Part shown: positions 52,957 to 63,347 of the stretch, in pieces
How the letters are laid out: every line of letters starts with the position of its first letter
How positions within the stretch are numbered: position 1 is the stretch's first letter
Assembly: GCA_937910695.1 (NCBI GenBank)
Contig: CALEMW010000148.1
Span: 1-64,000 of the forward strand
Reading direction: 5' to 3'
Length of the DNA: 64,000 nt
Origin: an uncultured bacterium
Lineage (GTDB): Bacteria; Krumholzibacteriota; Krumholzibacteriia; LZORAL124-64-63
Translations under genes and position numbers: made by a program
Notes under the pieces: generated by a model
What the model was told of the DNA's origin: nothing
Databases searched by the model: none
The model's input: the letters and a program-made list of their open reading frames with translations, nothing else

Positions 52957-53331
52957 CTAGCTGACGAAGAGGTCGAGGATCTTCATCACCCGAGCGAGGC
53001 TCTCGGCAACCTGTTCGCGAACCATTGCTGTATCGTAATCCCCGTTCAACAGGCGTTCGCGGACTTCGTCAATGCGCTGTTGCCTCAGATCGGGTTCCTT
53101 GGCCACCGCGGCCTCTCCGGCCTTGAGCGTCTCGTTCAGGCGCTCATACCGCTCTGCGAGGTCGGAACGCTCGAAGCGTTCGCCCTGAACCTCGAGGTTC
53201 TGGGTCACGGTCTCCTGAGTGGGCGTCGTCCCGCTATCCTTGACCTGGCCTTTATCCTGGGACTGCTGAGTCCGCTGGAACTGAGCCAAGGCCTGCTGGC
53301 GTAACGAGAGATCGATTTTGTTGGTCGCCAT
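52957..53331 (-). CDS. flgM: FlgM-like anti-sigma28 factor
   Basis: Small exported inhibitor that holds FliA until the hook is complete. At 124 aa it has a disordered, Gln-rich N-terminal half and the recognisable C-terminal FlgM pattern: LRQQRIDEVRERLLNGDYDTAMVREQVAESLARVM. It starts at the ATG 53331 behind AAGGAG. A sigma28 promoter lies ~120 bases upstream, as in the late flgM transcripts of other bacteria. Assignment rests on this pattern and context. Confidence 0.75.
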   Translation of the reverse strand: MATNKIDLSLRQQALAQFQRTQQSQDKGQVKDSGTTPTQETVTQNLEVQGERFERSDLAERYERLNETLKAGEAAVAKEPDLRQQRIDEVRERLLNGDYDTAMVREQVAESLARVMKILDLFVS

Positions 53332-53474: not shown

Positions 53475-53735
53475 GCATTATTTACGCTATGGTGCTGTGA
53501 TTGTCTTATTGTCCGCTTCGTATGCCGGAAGCATATCTGAGGACTGACTATATATACAGTCACAATCATCAAAGACGAATGGAACGGGTCTCATTCTGAA
53601 CATGCAGGACAAGCAGCATTCGGCAGCCTGGGTCAACGGTATCATGCCGACCGTGCTCGACTCCTTGGATGGAGCACGAGACGACTCTCCCAAGCCAAGC
53701 ATGAAACAGACTTCAAAATAAAAGGAATTAAAAGC
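53475..53735. other. AT-rich non-coding region between divergent flgM and fliC promoters
   Basis: About 260 bases without a gene I can support, noticeably AT-richer than its surroundings. It contains two small palindromic elements: TATGC-N5-GCATA (about 53521-53535) and GACT-ATATATAC-AGTC (53546-53561). Short open frames exist on both strands (up to 71 codons) but have no ribosome site and unusual composition. Likely binding ground for regulators of the two divergent sigma28 promoters. Confidence 0.4.
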
Positions 53736-53763: not shown

Positions 53764-53774
53764 CAAATCCAGTT

Positions 53775-53873
53775 GCGGATGGACCCAGGTTCAGCGGCGC
53801 TCTACGGACGGATCCAAGGACGCCACCTGGACATCACACATGACCCGTTCGTTCTTTCAAGGAGGAACACGAA
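53775..53873 (+). promoter_or_regulatory. Flagellin mRNA leader with clustered CsrA-type GGA motifs
   Basis: A-N-GGA motifs occur at 53779, 53804, 53808, 53816 and 53859, with further GGA triplets at 53777, 53829 and 53864; the one at 53859 is part of the AAGGAGG ribosome site. This is the arrangement expected for CsrA repression of translation, as known for hag mRNA of Bacillus. csrA and its antagonist fliW lie 3 kb downstream. Confidence 0.55.
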
Positions 53874-54695
53874 ATGGCCCTGAGGATCAACACCAACGTC
53901 GCGTCCCTGAACGCGCAGCGCAACCTGAACAAGAGCACGAGCATGCTGAACAAGTCGCTCGAACGCTTGAGTTCCGGTCTGCGCATCAACCGCGCCGCCG
54001 ACGACGCCGCCGGTCTGGCAATCTCCGAGTCCATGAAGGCCGACATCCGGGCTCTCGAGCAGTCCGGCCGGAACGCTGCCGACGGCGTATCCATGGTGCA
54101 GCTGGCGGAAGGCGCCCTCGATGAAGTGTCGGGGATCCTGATCCGCATGCGTGAACTGGCCCAACAGGCTGGTAACGGAACCATGGGTGCCACCGAGCGT
54201 GGATACATCGATGACGAGTTCGATGCTCTGTCTCTGGAGATCAACCGGATCAGCGACGCTGCCGAGTTCAACGGCATCAAGCTGCTCAATGGCGTTGGCG
54301 CTACCAGCGATATTCTCGTCGGTACCAGTGCCACCGACACGATCACGGTCAATCTCGCAAACGATGCTGATACGACCGGTCTCGGCATCAATGCGGTCGA
54401 TCTGACGACGGCTGCGACTGCACAGGCCGCCATGGCTACCATCGATACTGCGATCGGTACCCTCAGTGGCTGGCGCGCCGATTTCGGTGTGACCCAGAAC
54501 CGGCTCGAGTCGGCCATGCGCTCGATCGACAACTCGATCGAGAACATCTCGGCCGCGAACAGCCGTATCCGCGATGTGGACATCGCCGCCGAAACGAGCC
54601 GTATGACCAGCAGCCAGATCCTGCAGCAGGCTGGCGTGTCGGTGCTCGCACAGGCGAACATGTCGCCGCAGATGGCGTTGAACCTGCTCCAGTAG
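53874..54695 (+). CDS. fliC: Flagellin
   Basis: Filament subunit of 273 aa. The N-terminal D0/D1 (MALRINTNVASLNAQRNLNK, LERLSSGLRINRAADDAAGLAI) and the C-terminal D1/D0 (ENISAANSRIRDVDIAAETS, ILQQAGVSVLAQANMSPQMALNLLQ) are near-consensus. The middle (residues ~140-195) is very short, so there is essentially no D2/D3 surface domain. Strong AAGGAGG eight bases upstream. Transcribed from a sigma28 promoter and probably controlled post-transcriptionally through the GGA-rich leader. Only one flagellin gene is seen in the window. Confidence 0.97.
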   Translation: MALRINTNVASLNAQRNLNKSTSMLNKSLERLSSGLRINRAADDAAGLAISESMKADIRALEQSGRNAADGVSMVQLAEGALDEVSGILIRMRELAQQAGNGTMGATERGYIDDEFDALSLEINRISDAAEFNGIKLLNGVGATSDILVGTSATDTITVNLANDADTTGLGINAVDLTTAATAQAAMATIDTAIGTLSGWRADFGVTQNRLESAMRSIDNSIENISAANSRIRDVDIAAETSRMTSSQILQQAGVSVLAQANMSPQMALNLLQ

Positions 54696-54769: not shown

Positions 54770-56089
54770 ATGGGATCGATCACTTTCGGAGGACTCGCAT
54801 CGGGACTGGACACGAAGTACATCATCCAGTCGTTGGTGGCCCTGAGGCGCCGACCGATCGACAAGCTCGAAGCCAGGATTGACGATTACAACAAGACCAA
54901 GGGTGCCTACTCTGATCTTGAAGCGACGCTGAAGGGGCTGCTCACCGCTGTCCAGAATCTGGACACACCGAGCGAATTCGCCTCGTTGAGCGCAATCTCC
55001 GGCAACGAGGATCTGCTCACTGCCACGGCAGGAGCATTGGCTCAGCCCGGTTCCTACTCGGTTTCGGTCGAACAATTGGCTGCAGCCCAGAAGGACCGGT
55101 CACAAGGCTACGACGAAGCGAACTCGAGCGTGGGTACCGGAACCTTCTCCATCACGGTTGATGGAGTGACCACCGATATCGTGCTGGCTCCAGGTAGCGA
55201 TGGATTGGCGGATCTGAAGACCGCCATCAACGAATCGAACGTGGGTGTGACAGCCACGATCATCTACGACGGTTCTGAGACCGGTGGCTACCACCTGGTC
55301 ATGACAGCCGAAGAGACCGGCACCGACGCCGCGTTCTCCGTAGACGCCAGCGGCCTGAGCGGCGGTACGTCTCCGGTGTTCGTGAATGTGGATGCGGCCC
55401 TCAACGCCTCGTTGACCATCGACGGCCTGAACGTCACAAGCCAGAGCAACAGCATCGCCAACGCCATCGAAGGCGTGACCCTGGAACTCGAAGGTGAGGA
55501 CGCCCTGTCCACGTTCACTCTCGATGTTTCGGTGGATGCAACCGCATTGAAGGACAAGGTCCAGACATTTGTGGACGCCTACAATGAGGTGTTTACATAC
55601 GTCAACGCTCAGAAGTCTGAAGAAGCTTCTCTGCAGGGCGACCGTACTGTTCGCTCGGTGGTCAGCCGTATTCAGCGCATCATGACCACGGCCCTCGGCT
55701 CCGGCGACATCACCATGCTCTATCAGGCGGGTGTGAAGCAGGCTGAAGACGGGTTCTTGACCTTCGAGGAAGACACGTTTAACGAAGAAGTCGCCGCCGA
55801 CTACCAGGGCGTGCGCAATCTCTTCGTGAGCGACGGCAGCCATCAGGGTACAGTCTACCTGCTGGGCATCGCACTCGATGAGATGACAGACTCCGTCGAC
55901 GGTATGTTGCAAGTCAGCCGCGAAGCTATGGACTCGCGCATTGAGACTGCTGAAGATCGTATCGTTCGCATGGAACTCCTAGTGGACAGCTACGAAGCAC
56001 GGATCAGCGCTCAATTCACAGCCATGGAAAACATGATCTCCATGCTCCAGTCTCAGGGCAACGCCTTGGCCGGCATGTCCGTCTTCTAG
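54770..56089 (+). CDS. fliD: Filament cap protein FliD
   Basis: Forms the pentameric cap that folds flagellin at the filament tip. It begins MGSITFGGLASGLDTKYIIQ, followed by the FliD-N helix and the FliD-C pattern (ALKDKVQTFVDAYNEVFTYVN, RSVVSRIQRIMTTALG, GVRNLFVSDG). The last residues (RISAQFTAMENMISMLQSQGNALAGM) match the usual coiled C-terminus. At 439 aa it is normal. No separate strong promoter is visible; it is probably read through from fliC. Confidence 0.95.
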   Translation: MGSITFGGLASGLDTKYIIQSLVALRRRPIDKLEARIDDYNKTKGAYSDLEATLKGLLTAVQNLDTPSEFASLSAISGNEDLLTATAGALAQPGSYSVSVEQLAAAQKDRSQGYDEANSSVGTGTFSITVDGVTTDIVLAPGSDGLADLKTAINESNVGVTATIIYDGSETGGYHLVMTAEETGTDAAFSVDASGLSGGTSPVFVNVDAALNASLTIDGLNVTSQSNSIANAIEGVTLELEGEDALSTFTLDVSVDATALKDKVQTFVDAYNEVFTYVNAQKSEEASLQGDRTVRSVVSRIQRIMTTALGSGDITMLYQAGVKQAEDGFLTFEEDTFNEEVAADYQGVRNLFVSDGSHQGTVYLLGIALDEMTDSVDGMLQVSREAMDSRIETAEDRIVRMELLVDSYEARISAQFTAMENMISMLQSQGNALAGMSVF

Positions 56090-56113: not shown

Positions 56114-56629
56114 ATGCAGCAGATACGGGGAATCAACCAATACCAGCAGGTGACGATGCAGACCGTCTCCCCCGGTCGCATGATCGTGATGCTCTACGAA
56201 GGTGCTCTGCGGTTTCTCGAACGCGGCCGCGTGGCCCTGCAGGACAGGAACATCGAAACGCGGGCGATCAATCTGAACAAGGCGCAAGCCATCGTCTCGG
56301 AATTGAGGTTCGCCCTGGATCACGGCGCCGGCGCCACCTTCACCAGGGACCTGGAATCCCTCTACGATTTTGTAATCAGCGAGATCAACCAGGCGGTGCT
56401 CACCCAGGACGCCGTCCATGTGACCAACGCCATGGAAACCCTCGTTCCCCTGCTCGAAGCCTGGCGACAGATCCCCATGAACGGCACCAGCGGACCCACC
56501 GGAAACGGCACCGAGGTCGTGAATCTCTCCAACGGCGGAACGAAACCTGCTACGGAAGCATCGTCCGCTCCGGATTCCGCATCCAAGCAGGATTCCGGCA
56601 TGAAGAGCCACCTCTGCGTCGCGGTCTGA
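56114..56629 (+). CDS. fliS: Flagellin chaperone FliS
   Basis: Prevents premature flagellin polymerisation. The first ~125 residues are a four-helix FliS domain: YQQVTMQTVSPGRMIVMLYEGALRFLERG, NKAQAIVSELRFALD, LESLYDFVISEINQAVL. A further ~45 residues rich in Ser, Thr, Gly and Asn form a tail not usual for the family. In Bacillus FliS also takes part in the FliW-CsrA-flagellin balance. Confidence 0.93.
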   Translation: MQQIRGINQYQQVTMQTVSPGRMIVMLYEGALRFLERGRVALQDRNIETRAINLNKAQAIVSELRFALDHGAGATFTRDLESLYDFVISEINQAVLTQDAVHVTNAMETLVPLLEAWRQIPMNGTSGPTGNGTEVVNLSNGGTKPATEASSAPDSASKQDSGMKSHLCVAV

Positions 56630-56631
56630 TC

Positions 56632-56961
56632 ATGATCCCTACGTCCCAACGCATTCTGGAACTGACTCTGGCCGTGGCTGAAGCCGCCGTAGCCGGAGAT
56701 ATCCCGCGTTGTGACGCCCTGCTGACCGAACGCGGCGAAGCCGTCCGTCGACTGGGCGAACTTCATGCAGAATCCGGCTGTAGCCAGCCCTCGAACGAAG
56801 TCAGGGATAATCTGCGACACGTCCAGGAACTGGATAGGGAGCTCGAGCGGAGCTGGACTCAAGAGCGGGACCTGGCCGGTCGTGAACTGGACCGCATCGC
56901 AAGCCGCCCCAAACAAAAACACGGTACCGAAGCACCGTGTATTATCGACCGTCAAGCCTGA
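56632..56961 (+). CDS. fliT: FliT-like flagellar chaperone
   Basis: Protein of 109 aa directly after fliS (two bases), all helical: ILELTLAVAEAAVAGDIPRCDALLTERGEAVRRLGEL then RHVQELDRELERSWTQERDL. FliT proteins are chaperones for FliD and are poorly conserved; position after fliD-fliS is the main reason for the name. Its final codons overlap the terminator of the convergent csrA operon. Confidence 0.65.
   Translation: MIPTSQRILELTLAVAEAAVAGDIPRCDALLTERGEAVRRLGELHAESGCSQPSNEVRDNLRHVQELDRELERSWTQERDLAGRELDRIASRPKQKHGTEAPCIIDRQA
56911..56940 (-). terminator. Intrinsic terminator of the csrA operon
   Basis: Perfect 7-base arms (acacggt / accgtgt) with an 8-base loop; on the minus strand the stem is followed by TTTTTGTTT. 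It lies 31 bases after the csrA stop but inside the 3' coding end of the opposing fliT gene. Confidence 0.7.
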
Positions 56962-56970
56962 TCCTCACCC

Positions 56971-57225
56971 CTAATCCCCGTCCTTCTCCTCGGGATCCTT
57001 CTTCTTAAGATTCTCCCGAACCTTCTGTACGTCCTCTGGAGCCGAATCTGCGGCGCTCATCGTAACACTGCGGATCTCTTCATAGATCTCGTGCCGATGG
57101 ACGGGTATGGAACGTGGGGCATCGATCCCGACCTGGACCTGATCGCCGCGAATATCGACGATCATGATCGAGATGTTGTCTCCGATCATGATCTTCTCGT
57201 TGCGTTTGCGGCTGAGGATGAGCAC
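56971..57225 (-). CDS. csrA: Carbon storage/translational regulator CsrA
   Basis: RNA-binding dimer that blocks ribosome sites carrying GGA motifs. From the GTG at 57225 (GGAGG four bases upstream) the protein is 84 aa and starts [20 protein letters not shown], followed by [22 protein letters not shown], the full CsrA core. The ~25-residue tail is charged ([15 protein letters not shown]) and longer than in E. coli. It is the last gene of the flgH-fliW run; its likely target is the fliC leader. Confidence 0.95.
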
Positions 57226-57295
57226 GTGACCTCCATGTCCCGCTTGGCCCCCGTAGGGTCCGCCAACCCGACGCTGTTGCGCTGATGCGAACCGG

Positions 57296-57826
57296 TCAGG
57301 TCCTGACCAGGAACTGCTCCTTGTTCTCGACGCAGCAATCCTCCTGCGACGATGCATTCGGGGTCTCGGAATCGTCGTTAAGCTCCTCGAGGGCAACGAC
57401 GTCGGCCCCGAACCTGACATAATCGATCTCTTGGTGCAAGCAATAGTTTTGTTCGGTCAGGATGCACTGTAACCCACTGTGGTTTTTCACGTTGACCACG
57501 ACTGGCGCCGTCAGGTTACCTGTGATTCGCTCACCTCCCTGGTGGATCGTCGTGACGATCATCACCACCAGGTCTTCGGCCTTGGGACTGTCCAACAAAC
57601 GTTCCGCGCGGTCGTCCAGCTCGAAGGCGTAGTCCTGGTCGAAGTATCCTGGATCCGTCATCGGTACGCGAAAGCCCGGTCGATCGAGGGATTGGAGCCA
57701 CTTCAACGGCAGCGGCGGATCCATTTCCGTCAATACCCAGCGGCGCAGGGTGGGAAGTCCGACAAGACCCTCCGGCAGGCTGATCACGTCCTCCTCACAG
57801 TGTGTCGTTGCTGGCTTGCTGTTCAT
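57296..57826 (-). CDS. fliW: Flagellar assembly factor FliW
   Basis: Protein that binds flagellin or, when released, CsrA. It shows the FliW pattern: [75 protein letters not shown]. The core ends near residue 145; about 30 polar residues follow, including a Cys pair. Adjacent to csrA, as in most genomes that use this switch. Confidence 0.92.
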
Positions 57827-62233: not shown

Positions 62234-63037
62234 CTACATGATCACGAGTTCAGCCTGCAGGGCCCCGGCCACCTTGAGGGCCTGGAGAATCGCCACGATG
62301 TCACGGGGACTCGCACCCACTTCGTTCAGCACGGCCACGACGTCGGAAACGGTGCCGGAGTCGGGTACATGAATGACCGAAGCTTCCTTCTCCTCCACGT
62401 CGGTGATCACCGAAGGCGTGACGATTGTGCGGCCGCTCTCGTTGAACGAATTCGGCTGCGATACGTCATAGCTGGTCTTGATGATGACTTTGAGATTGCC
62501 GTGAGCGACCGCGGCCTCATGCAGCCTGACCCCGGCACCCGCAATGATGGTGCCCGTGCGCTCGTTGATGATCACCTTGGCCGTCTGGTCCGCCTCAGCT
62601 GACAACTCGCCCATACGCGCGATGAAGTCGACGGGCTGGGAGAAGAACGCTTCCGGTACGTTCACTTCGATGCGTTGGGCGTCCATTGCCCGGGCTGTGC
62701 CGCCGCCGAAGACCATGTTGATGGCGTTGGTGACCCGCTGAGCGGTCGTAAAATCAGGGTTGTGCAGCAGCCAGGCCATGGTGCCGTCGCGGACCATGCT
62801 GCCCGGTCCACGGGTGGTCACCTTGCCGCCGTTGGGAATGCGGCCGACCGTTGAATGGTTCTTGCGGATCGAGTTGTTGGCCCCGCCGCTGATGTTGAAG
62901 CCCCCGATGGACACGGCCCCCTGAGCAACCACGTAGACGTTGCCGTCGGTGCCTTTCATGGGCGCCATGATCAGTTCGCCGCCCTCGAGACTCGAAGCGT
63001 CACCCAAGGACGACACCTTCACGTCCAGGCGGCTGCC
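62234..63037 (-). CDS. flgI: P-ring protein FlgI, C-terminal part of a frameshifted gene
   Basis: About 267 residues continuing FlgI from GSRLDVKVSSLGDASSLEGG through MAPMKGTDGNVYVVAQGAV, and ending KVAGALQAELVIM, the usual terminus. It is in a different frame from the N-terminal part: one extra base at 63038 (A on the minus strand) separates them. Removing that base joins the two into a normal 370-residue FlgI. As it stands, this part has no start codon of its own except GTG at 63022. Confidence 0.85.
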   Translation of the reverse strand, partial: GSRLDVKVSSLGDASSLEGGELIMAPMKGTDGNVYVVAQGAVSIGGFNISGGANNSIRKNHSTVGRIPNGGKVTTRGPGSMVRDGTMAWLLHNPDFTTAQRVTNAINMVFGGGTARAMDAQRIEVNVPEAFFSQPVDFIARMGELSAEADQTAKVIINERTGTIIAGAGVRLHEAAVAHGNLKVIIKTSYDVSQPNSFNESGRTIVTPSVITDVEEKEASVIHVPDSGTVSDVVAVLNEVGASPRDIVAILQALKVAGALQAELVIM

Positions 63038-63347
63038 TGGCGCCGAATGGGGACAGTTCCGAGGTGATCAGCACCGCGGCGACGTTCTTCAACTTGATCT
63101 GGGTCTGATCCACCGTCACACCGAGCCGCTCCAACATGGAGGTGAGCGAGGCCACGGTATAGGCGGAGCTCTGTCCGTCGCCGGTTCCGTTCAATCCCAC
63201 GACCAGGCCGTAGCCCAGCAGCGGTTCGGTGGACTGTCCGTCGAGCATGGCCAGGTCCTTGATGCGCGAGAACGATGCGTCGACACCCGACGCAGTCACG
63301 ACCACGAACATCAATCCGAGCAGCAGAATGCGTTTCCACATGGTCAT
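63000..63347 (-). CDS. flgI: P-ring protein FlgI, N-terminal part of a frameshifted gene
   Basis: 115-codon frame with a signal peptide (RILLLGLMFVVVTASGVDA) and the classic FlgI start: IKDLAMLDGQ, LLGYGLVVGLNGTGDGQSSAYT, IKLKNVAAVLITSELSPFG. After residue 103 the frame leaves the FlgI alignment (RQPPGREGVVLG) and stops at 63000. Start at 63347 or the second ATG at 63341, which is better spaced from AGGGGG. It follows flgH by six bases. Confidence 0.85.
   Translation of the reverse strand: MTMWKRILLLGLMFVVVTASGVDASFSRIKDLAMLDGQSTEPLLGYGLVVGLNGTGDGQSSAYTVASLTSMLERLGVTVDQTQIKLKNVAAVLITSELSPFGARQPPGREGVVLG

Follow-up and report, generated by a model that had tools for sequence, protein, structure and literature searches.

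In the diderm bacterium Campylobacter jejuni, CsrA pulls down AAGGA sequences that are located in hairpin loops and represses the sigma-28-transcribed flagellin gene flaA via two such stem-loops in a leader of 45 nt; the second of these is on the ribosome site, compensatory changes are found in relatives, and FliW acts as the CsrA antagonist (PMC4894983). In Bacillus subtilis, the leader of the flagellin gene hag has two CsrA sites, one of which is on the Shine-Dalgarno sequence, and fliW is found directly before csrA, near the flagellar late genes (PMC6529632, PMC7652899). The FliW–CsrA ratio in Bacillus is partly set by the overlap and the translational coupling of fliW and csrA, and other systems restricting the FliW and CsrA levels have been predicted, not identified (PMC6529632). 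The Asn55 residue of CsrA is reported to be identical across all FliW-bearing species examined and, in Bacillus, Campylobacter, and Geobacter, to be required for the binding of FliW (PMC7829508, PMC13407953). In Escherichia coli, CsrA represses its own translation via a site over the csrA Shine-Dalgarno sequence (PMC7652899).

By analogy, the flagellin locus described here, found in the window (the whole 64-kb stretch of DNA that was analyzed), resembles the flagellin control systems of Campylobacter and Bacillus. As for C. jejuni, it belongs to a diderm, its flagellin gene appears to be sigma-28-transcribed, ANGGA motifs occur on the ribosome site and upstream, with compensatory changes in relatives, and FliW would be the antagonist of CsrA, as judged by gene content and sequence. 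Unlike in C. jejuni, the leader is about 104 nt long and has five ANGGA motifs instead of two, the genes are all in one locus, residue 55 of CsrA is a threonine, and csrA has a candidate CsrA site of its own. The order of fliW and csrA is that of B. subtilis, but the genes overlap in the latter organism, whereas here the fliW stop codon is 70 nt before the csrA start. The Geobacter sulfurreducens system (PMC13407953) is also that of a diderm, in which FliW binds CsrA and Asn55 is present and needed. With E. coli (PMC7652899), the locus shares a CsrA site over the csrA Shine-Dalgarno sequence, both the site and the self-repression being predictions here; E. coli differs in having the CsrB/C decoy RNAs and, like other gammaproteobacteria, in being without fliW.

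The initial annotation regarded such control as new for a diderm. The window contains the L-ring gene flgH and the P-ring gene flgI, which support the diderm state itself, but the novelty is wrongly claimed: Campylobacter is a diderm, with a published flaA leader that has the two stem-loops and compensatory changes (PMC4894983), and the FliW–CsrA interaction has been published for Geobacter (PMC13407953).

Results

The flagellin locus of the window

The features of the locus are listed in Table 1. Both csrA and fliW are present and linked to flagellar genes. The neighboring position of these two genes about 3 kb from the leader, and the presence of fliD and fliS after fliC, both described by the initial annotation, are supported by Pfam, and the five A-N-GGA motifs and other GGA triplets that it had placed in a leader of about 100 bases, one on the ribosome site, were located and are above shuffles. 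One copy of csrA and one flagellin gene were found in the window genome (94%-complete assembly). The mRNA of fliC would start at about 53770, as placed from the position of the promoter. A related promoter element, TCAAG/TAAAG-N13–19-CCGA, is found 5' of 38 of 94 flagellin genes in relatives (shuffles: 0.8).

Table 1. Features of the flagellin locus, numbered by position in the window
Feature	Position	Strand	Description
flgM-like anti-sigma-28 gene, divergent from fliC	52957–53331	minus	24 bits, just under the cut-off of 25
Sigma-28-type promoter, TCAAGTTC-N12-TCCGATAA	53736–53763	plus	predicted from sequence
fliC 5' leader	53770–53873	plus	about 104 nt; five A-N-GGA, eight GGA
ATGGA	53779–53783	plus	partly exposed; GGA mean unpaired probability 0.62
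Imperfect hairpin arm, predicted	53785–53830	plus	CCAGGU...ACCUGG, tip GGA[CGGA]UCC
ACGGA	53804–53808	plus	mostly paired, 0.11; overlaps the ACGGA at 53808
ACGGA	53808–53812	plus	end loop of the imperfect arm; unpaired probability 0.96
AAGGA within CAAGGACG (CAAGGACG at 53815)	53816–53820	plus	unpaired probability 0.07
Ribosome-site hairpin, UUUC[AAGGA]GGAA / C[AAGGAG]G	53855–53867	plus	full match to (A/U)CANGGANG(U/A)
fliC	53874–54695	plus	sole flagellin gene found in the genome; Pfam
fliD	54770–56089	plus	Pfam
fliS	56114–56629	plus	Pfam
fliT-like gene	56632–56961	plus	weak match, 24.9 bits, under the cut-off of 29.5
csrA	56971–57225	minus	GTG start, 84 amino acids; Pfam CsrA 86.3 bits, cut-off 27
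Candidate CsrA site on the csrA ribosome site, GAC[AUGGAG]GUC	57228–57239	minus	from sequence
fliW	57296–57826	minus	Pfam FliW 103.7 bits, cut-off 25; 5dmb_A (solved FliW), E = 2.1e-12

Two side observations concern the gene content. An open frame of 39 codons (53602–53721, plus strand) is located between flgM and fliC and stops just 5' of the fliC promoter. The flgI gene (62234–63347, minus strand) is broken across two frames near 63010, giving the open frames 63000–63347 and 62234–63022, the second of which matches positions 85 to 343 of the FlgI profile; this is a frameshift, either real or from assembly.

Motifs and predicted fold of the fliC leader

The leader has an A-N-GGA on the Shine-Dalgarno site of fliC (the AAGGA at 53859) together with at least one upstream. 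Its five ANGGA motifs compare with a mean of 0.9 in 5000 dinucleotide shuffles of the 104 nt (P = 0.0008), and its eight GGA triplets, which include those at 53777, 53829, and 53864, with a mean of 3.6 (P = 0.0002). On removal of the last 20 nt, four ANGGA motifs are left (P = 0.0004, dinucleotide shuffles). When both strands of the window are scanned, at least five ANGGA per 104 nt are found in the fliC leader only.

The predicted fold is less distinctive. The initial annotation had proposed to look for GGA in loops, and the ACGGA at 53808 is indeed exposed, but three of the five ANGGA sites are predicted to be mostly paired, including the GGA of the Shine-Dalgarno site (0.28). A specially stable fold was considered and rejected, as the whole leader folds no more stably than its shuffles (z = 0.06), and no perfect hairpin of at least 4 bp was found upstream in the window's own leader. 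The CAAGGACG sequence is the loop core of the GGC[AAGGAC]GUC-type hairpins of relatives; its flanking stem has been lost in the window leader. By its motifs and its family, the leader therefore appears to be a convincing CsrA target, whereas by its own fold it would be only a fair one.

Conservation of the leader in the phylum

The phylum is small, being represented by one class and 80 genomes. Flagellin genes were detected in 41 of 58 relatives, and the comparison of their neighborhoods provided 94 fliC leaders. The sequence C[ANGGAN]G is found at the ribosome site of 87% of these leaders and of 81% of 27 csrA leaders, compared with 0% for flgK, flgL, flgM, and fliS and 11% for fliD of the same genomes. 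An upstream hairpin of at least 4 bp with an ANGGA loop is present in 56 of the 94 leaders, against a mean of 4.5 and a maximum of 15 in shuffles, which makes such hairpins about 12 times commoner than in shuffles, although the leaders share ancestry and are not independent samples, so that the shuffle statistics overstate the significance.

The hairpin-loop sequences are conserved across the phylum, whereas the stems vary and yet remain complementary, as in TCAGGC[AAGGAC]GTCTGA, GCGGGC[AAGGAC]GCCCGC, GCAGCGA[AAGGAC]TCGCTGC, and GGGCGACC[AAGGAC]GGTCGCCC upstream, and in GTTTTC[AAGGAG]GAAAAC, CTTC[AAGGAG]GAAG, and ATATTC[AAGGAG]GAATAT at the ribosome site. The ribosome-site stem is at least 5 bp in 48% of the leaders, compared with 11% when the flanks are shuffled. 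Stems as diverse as these are expected where a hairpin is under selection. The combination of hairpin loops and compensatory changes is found over the relatives and is weak for the window leader alone.

The mean number of ANGGA motifs is 2.3 per 110 nt over the 94 leaders, the five of the window being at the high end. The conservation of GGA motifs in related leaders, on which the initial annotation had made its proposal depend, is strong for about two sites (the ribosome site and one upstream) and does not extend to the count of five; the other three are specific to the window genome, and the possibility that all five are functional was rejected.

The gene order flgK-flgL-fliW-csrA, converging on fliS-fliD-fliC, is kept among relatives; in more distant families of the phylum, the order is flgK-flgL-fliW-csrA-fliC, all in one direction. 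With its one flagellin gene, the window genome is unlike most of its family (G005, G007, G009, G012, G019, G021, and others), in whose genomes three to eight matches to flagellin genes are found. Many of these matches form tandem arrays, and each has a leader of its own type. A conserved element, GGGCAAGCTGCAA, located about 60 to 85 nt 5' of the start of one flagellin type, is found at the first flagellin of the arrays in L120, L131, L140, L148, L136, L119, and L127; it is not obviously a CsrA site. Upstream ANGGA hairpins are also found in 14 of 27 fliD leaders, and hairpins like GTCGA[CGGA]TCGAC occur about 40 nt 5' of fliD in relatives with several flagellins (L114, L122, L136, L140, L148, and others), such that fliD may be a further CsrA target.

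Outside the phylum, 79 flagellin loci of other organisms were compared; these are mostly gammaproteobacterial, with no adjacent fliW and an ordinary AGGAG site, and most are without the motif. In Nitrospira (L109), which has csrA and fliW ahead of fliC, an upstream GGGC[ACGGAU]GCCC hairpin is found together with a UCAAGGAGGA ribosome site.

A CsrA-type signal at the csrA start site

In the clade that unites the family of the window with its sister family, a CsrA-type signal is found on the csrA ribosome site in all 34 genomes, mostly as GGAC[AGGGAG]GUCC, with the form CGAC...GUCG in the sister family. It is absent from the other families of the phylum, save for one chance-like match (G037), and the gap between fliW and csrA is 8 to 35 nt in those families. 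From these sequences, self-repression of csrA is predicted for the window's clade. That such sites are exclusive to this clade was rejected, as two other phyla also have C[ANGGAN]G at the csrA site: the Geothermobacter phylum in 14 of 27 loci (2 of 16 for fliW) and the Bacillota phylum in 8 of 30 (1 of 28 for fliW), the stem test not being significant there. A literature search, judged on titles and abstracts, found no report of csrA self-repression in FliW-type systems.

Residue 55 of CsrA and the FliW partner

The CsrA of the window has the RNA-binding Arg44 and, with 84 residues compared with 61 in the E. coli form, a C-terminal extension; its residues 2 to 75 align with 5dmb_D, the CsrA chain of the solved CsrA–FliW complex. 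At position 51, where Val or Ile is expected, it has Ile, which is kept in the clade. The extension is also kept, with clade CsrA lengths of 78 to 96 residues, except for one 60-residue reading at a contig end, and fliW adjoins csrA across the whole clade. The linkage and the extension agree with the CsrA/FliW partner switch of the initial annotation; the replacement of Asn55 by Thr does not.

In the 34 clade genomes, residue 55 is Thr in 31, and Ile, Met, and Asn (G020) in one each. The Nitrospira sequence has Asn at this position, as do all 10 genomes of the phylum that are outside the clade. For the two other phyla sampled, it is Asn in all automatically numbered CsrA sequences, one Ser excepted, and, by eye, in those outside the automatic numbering, except for the fused protein L210. 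As the clade forms a single lineage (support 0.96), the loss of Asn55 represents one or two events, not many. Positions 49–55 and 131–139 of FliW are changed in the same clade. For FliW to antagonize CsrA there, either the surface by which the two proteins meet must be altered or Asn55 must be dispensable. A tie between the loss of Asn55 and the gain of the csrA site is possible, but with only one lineage concerned the two may have coincided once by chance; G020 combines the site with Asn55.

In two loci, L239 (G095:C64) and L210 (G083:C319), CsrA and FliW are in a single open frame (253 and 217 amino acids), being natural fusions by Pfam unless contig errors have joined them. The literature search turned up no report of CsrA–FliW fusions. 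In a fusion the two proteins are held at a 1:1 ratio, which may be relevant to the action of FliW upon CsrA.

Discussion

The account that we prefer, and consider probable as a whole, is that of a CsrA operator in the fliC leader combined with a FliW switch, with clade-specific changes. The leader would be a translational operator, in which a CsrA dimer on the ribosome-site A-N-GGA and an upstream A-N-GGA would block the entry of the ribosome. When flagellin is exported, FliW would be freed from flagellin and would bind CsrA, lifting the block, and on accumulation flagellin would capture FliW, such that the block returns. In the window's clade, free CsrA would also repress its own synthesis via the signal at the csrA ribosome site, and the FliW–CsrA contact would work without Asn55, probably via a remodelled surface. 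We infer the binding of CsrA, the repression, and the binding of FliW to flagellin and to CsrA. The motifs and their conservation make it very likely that CsrA represses fliC, and it is likely from the gene content that FliW antagonizes CsrA here. This last step may involve a changed interface, given the Thr at position 55 in the window and in almost all of its clade. As the Asn55 reported to be required is replaced, the system is classed as a variant and not as a standard member.

It is very improbable that the motifs are merely a strong Shine-Dalgarno site in a purine-rich leader, with no role for CsrA. A GGA belongs to any good Shine-Dalgarno site, and the window leader folds no better than chance, but the relatives' other flagellar genes are without the C[ANGGAN]G context, the excess of upstream hairpins is accompanied by changing stems, and four of the five ANGGA motifs are 5' of the Shine-Dalgarno site. 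It is likewise very improbable that decoy RNAs of the CsrB/RsmZ type, and not FliW, set the CsrA activity: the gammaproteobacterial CsrA works with such RNAs, but an anti-correlation exists between FliW and BarA-UvrY, the genes by which these RNAs are driven (PMC7652899).

A less remote alternative, although still an unlikely one, is that CsrA represses fliC but that antagonism by FliW was lost in the clade together with Asn55, FliW being only a flagellin-binding protein, with self-repression and titration on the abundant fliC mRNA keeping CsrA in check. The absence of Asn55 in 33 of 34 clade genomes, compared with its near-constancy in the other lineages sampled, is in agreement with this, as is the csrA signal in every clade genome; the C. 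jejuni flaA mRNA itself titrates CsrA (PMC4894983). Against this loss of antagonism, fliW is still beside csrA throughout the clade, the C-terminal extension and Ile51 of CsrA are retained, and the clade member G020 retains Asn55.

With FliW kept as the antagonist, it is possible, although we put this forward only tentatively, that the switch has been rewired in one clade, such that FliW inhibits CsrA through an interface without Asn55, while self-repression at the csrA start site, and not the fliW–csrA overlap, determines the dose of CsrA. The flagellin switch itself is already known. The csrA self-site is a candidate answer to the question, posed for Bacillus, of what further restricts FliW and CsrA levels, and the replacement of Asn55 across a clade that keeps all else is a natural experiment on what the binding of FliW needs.
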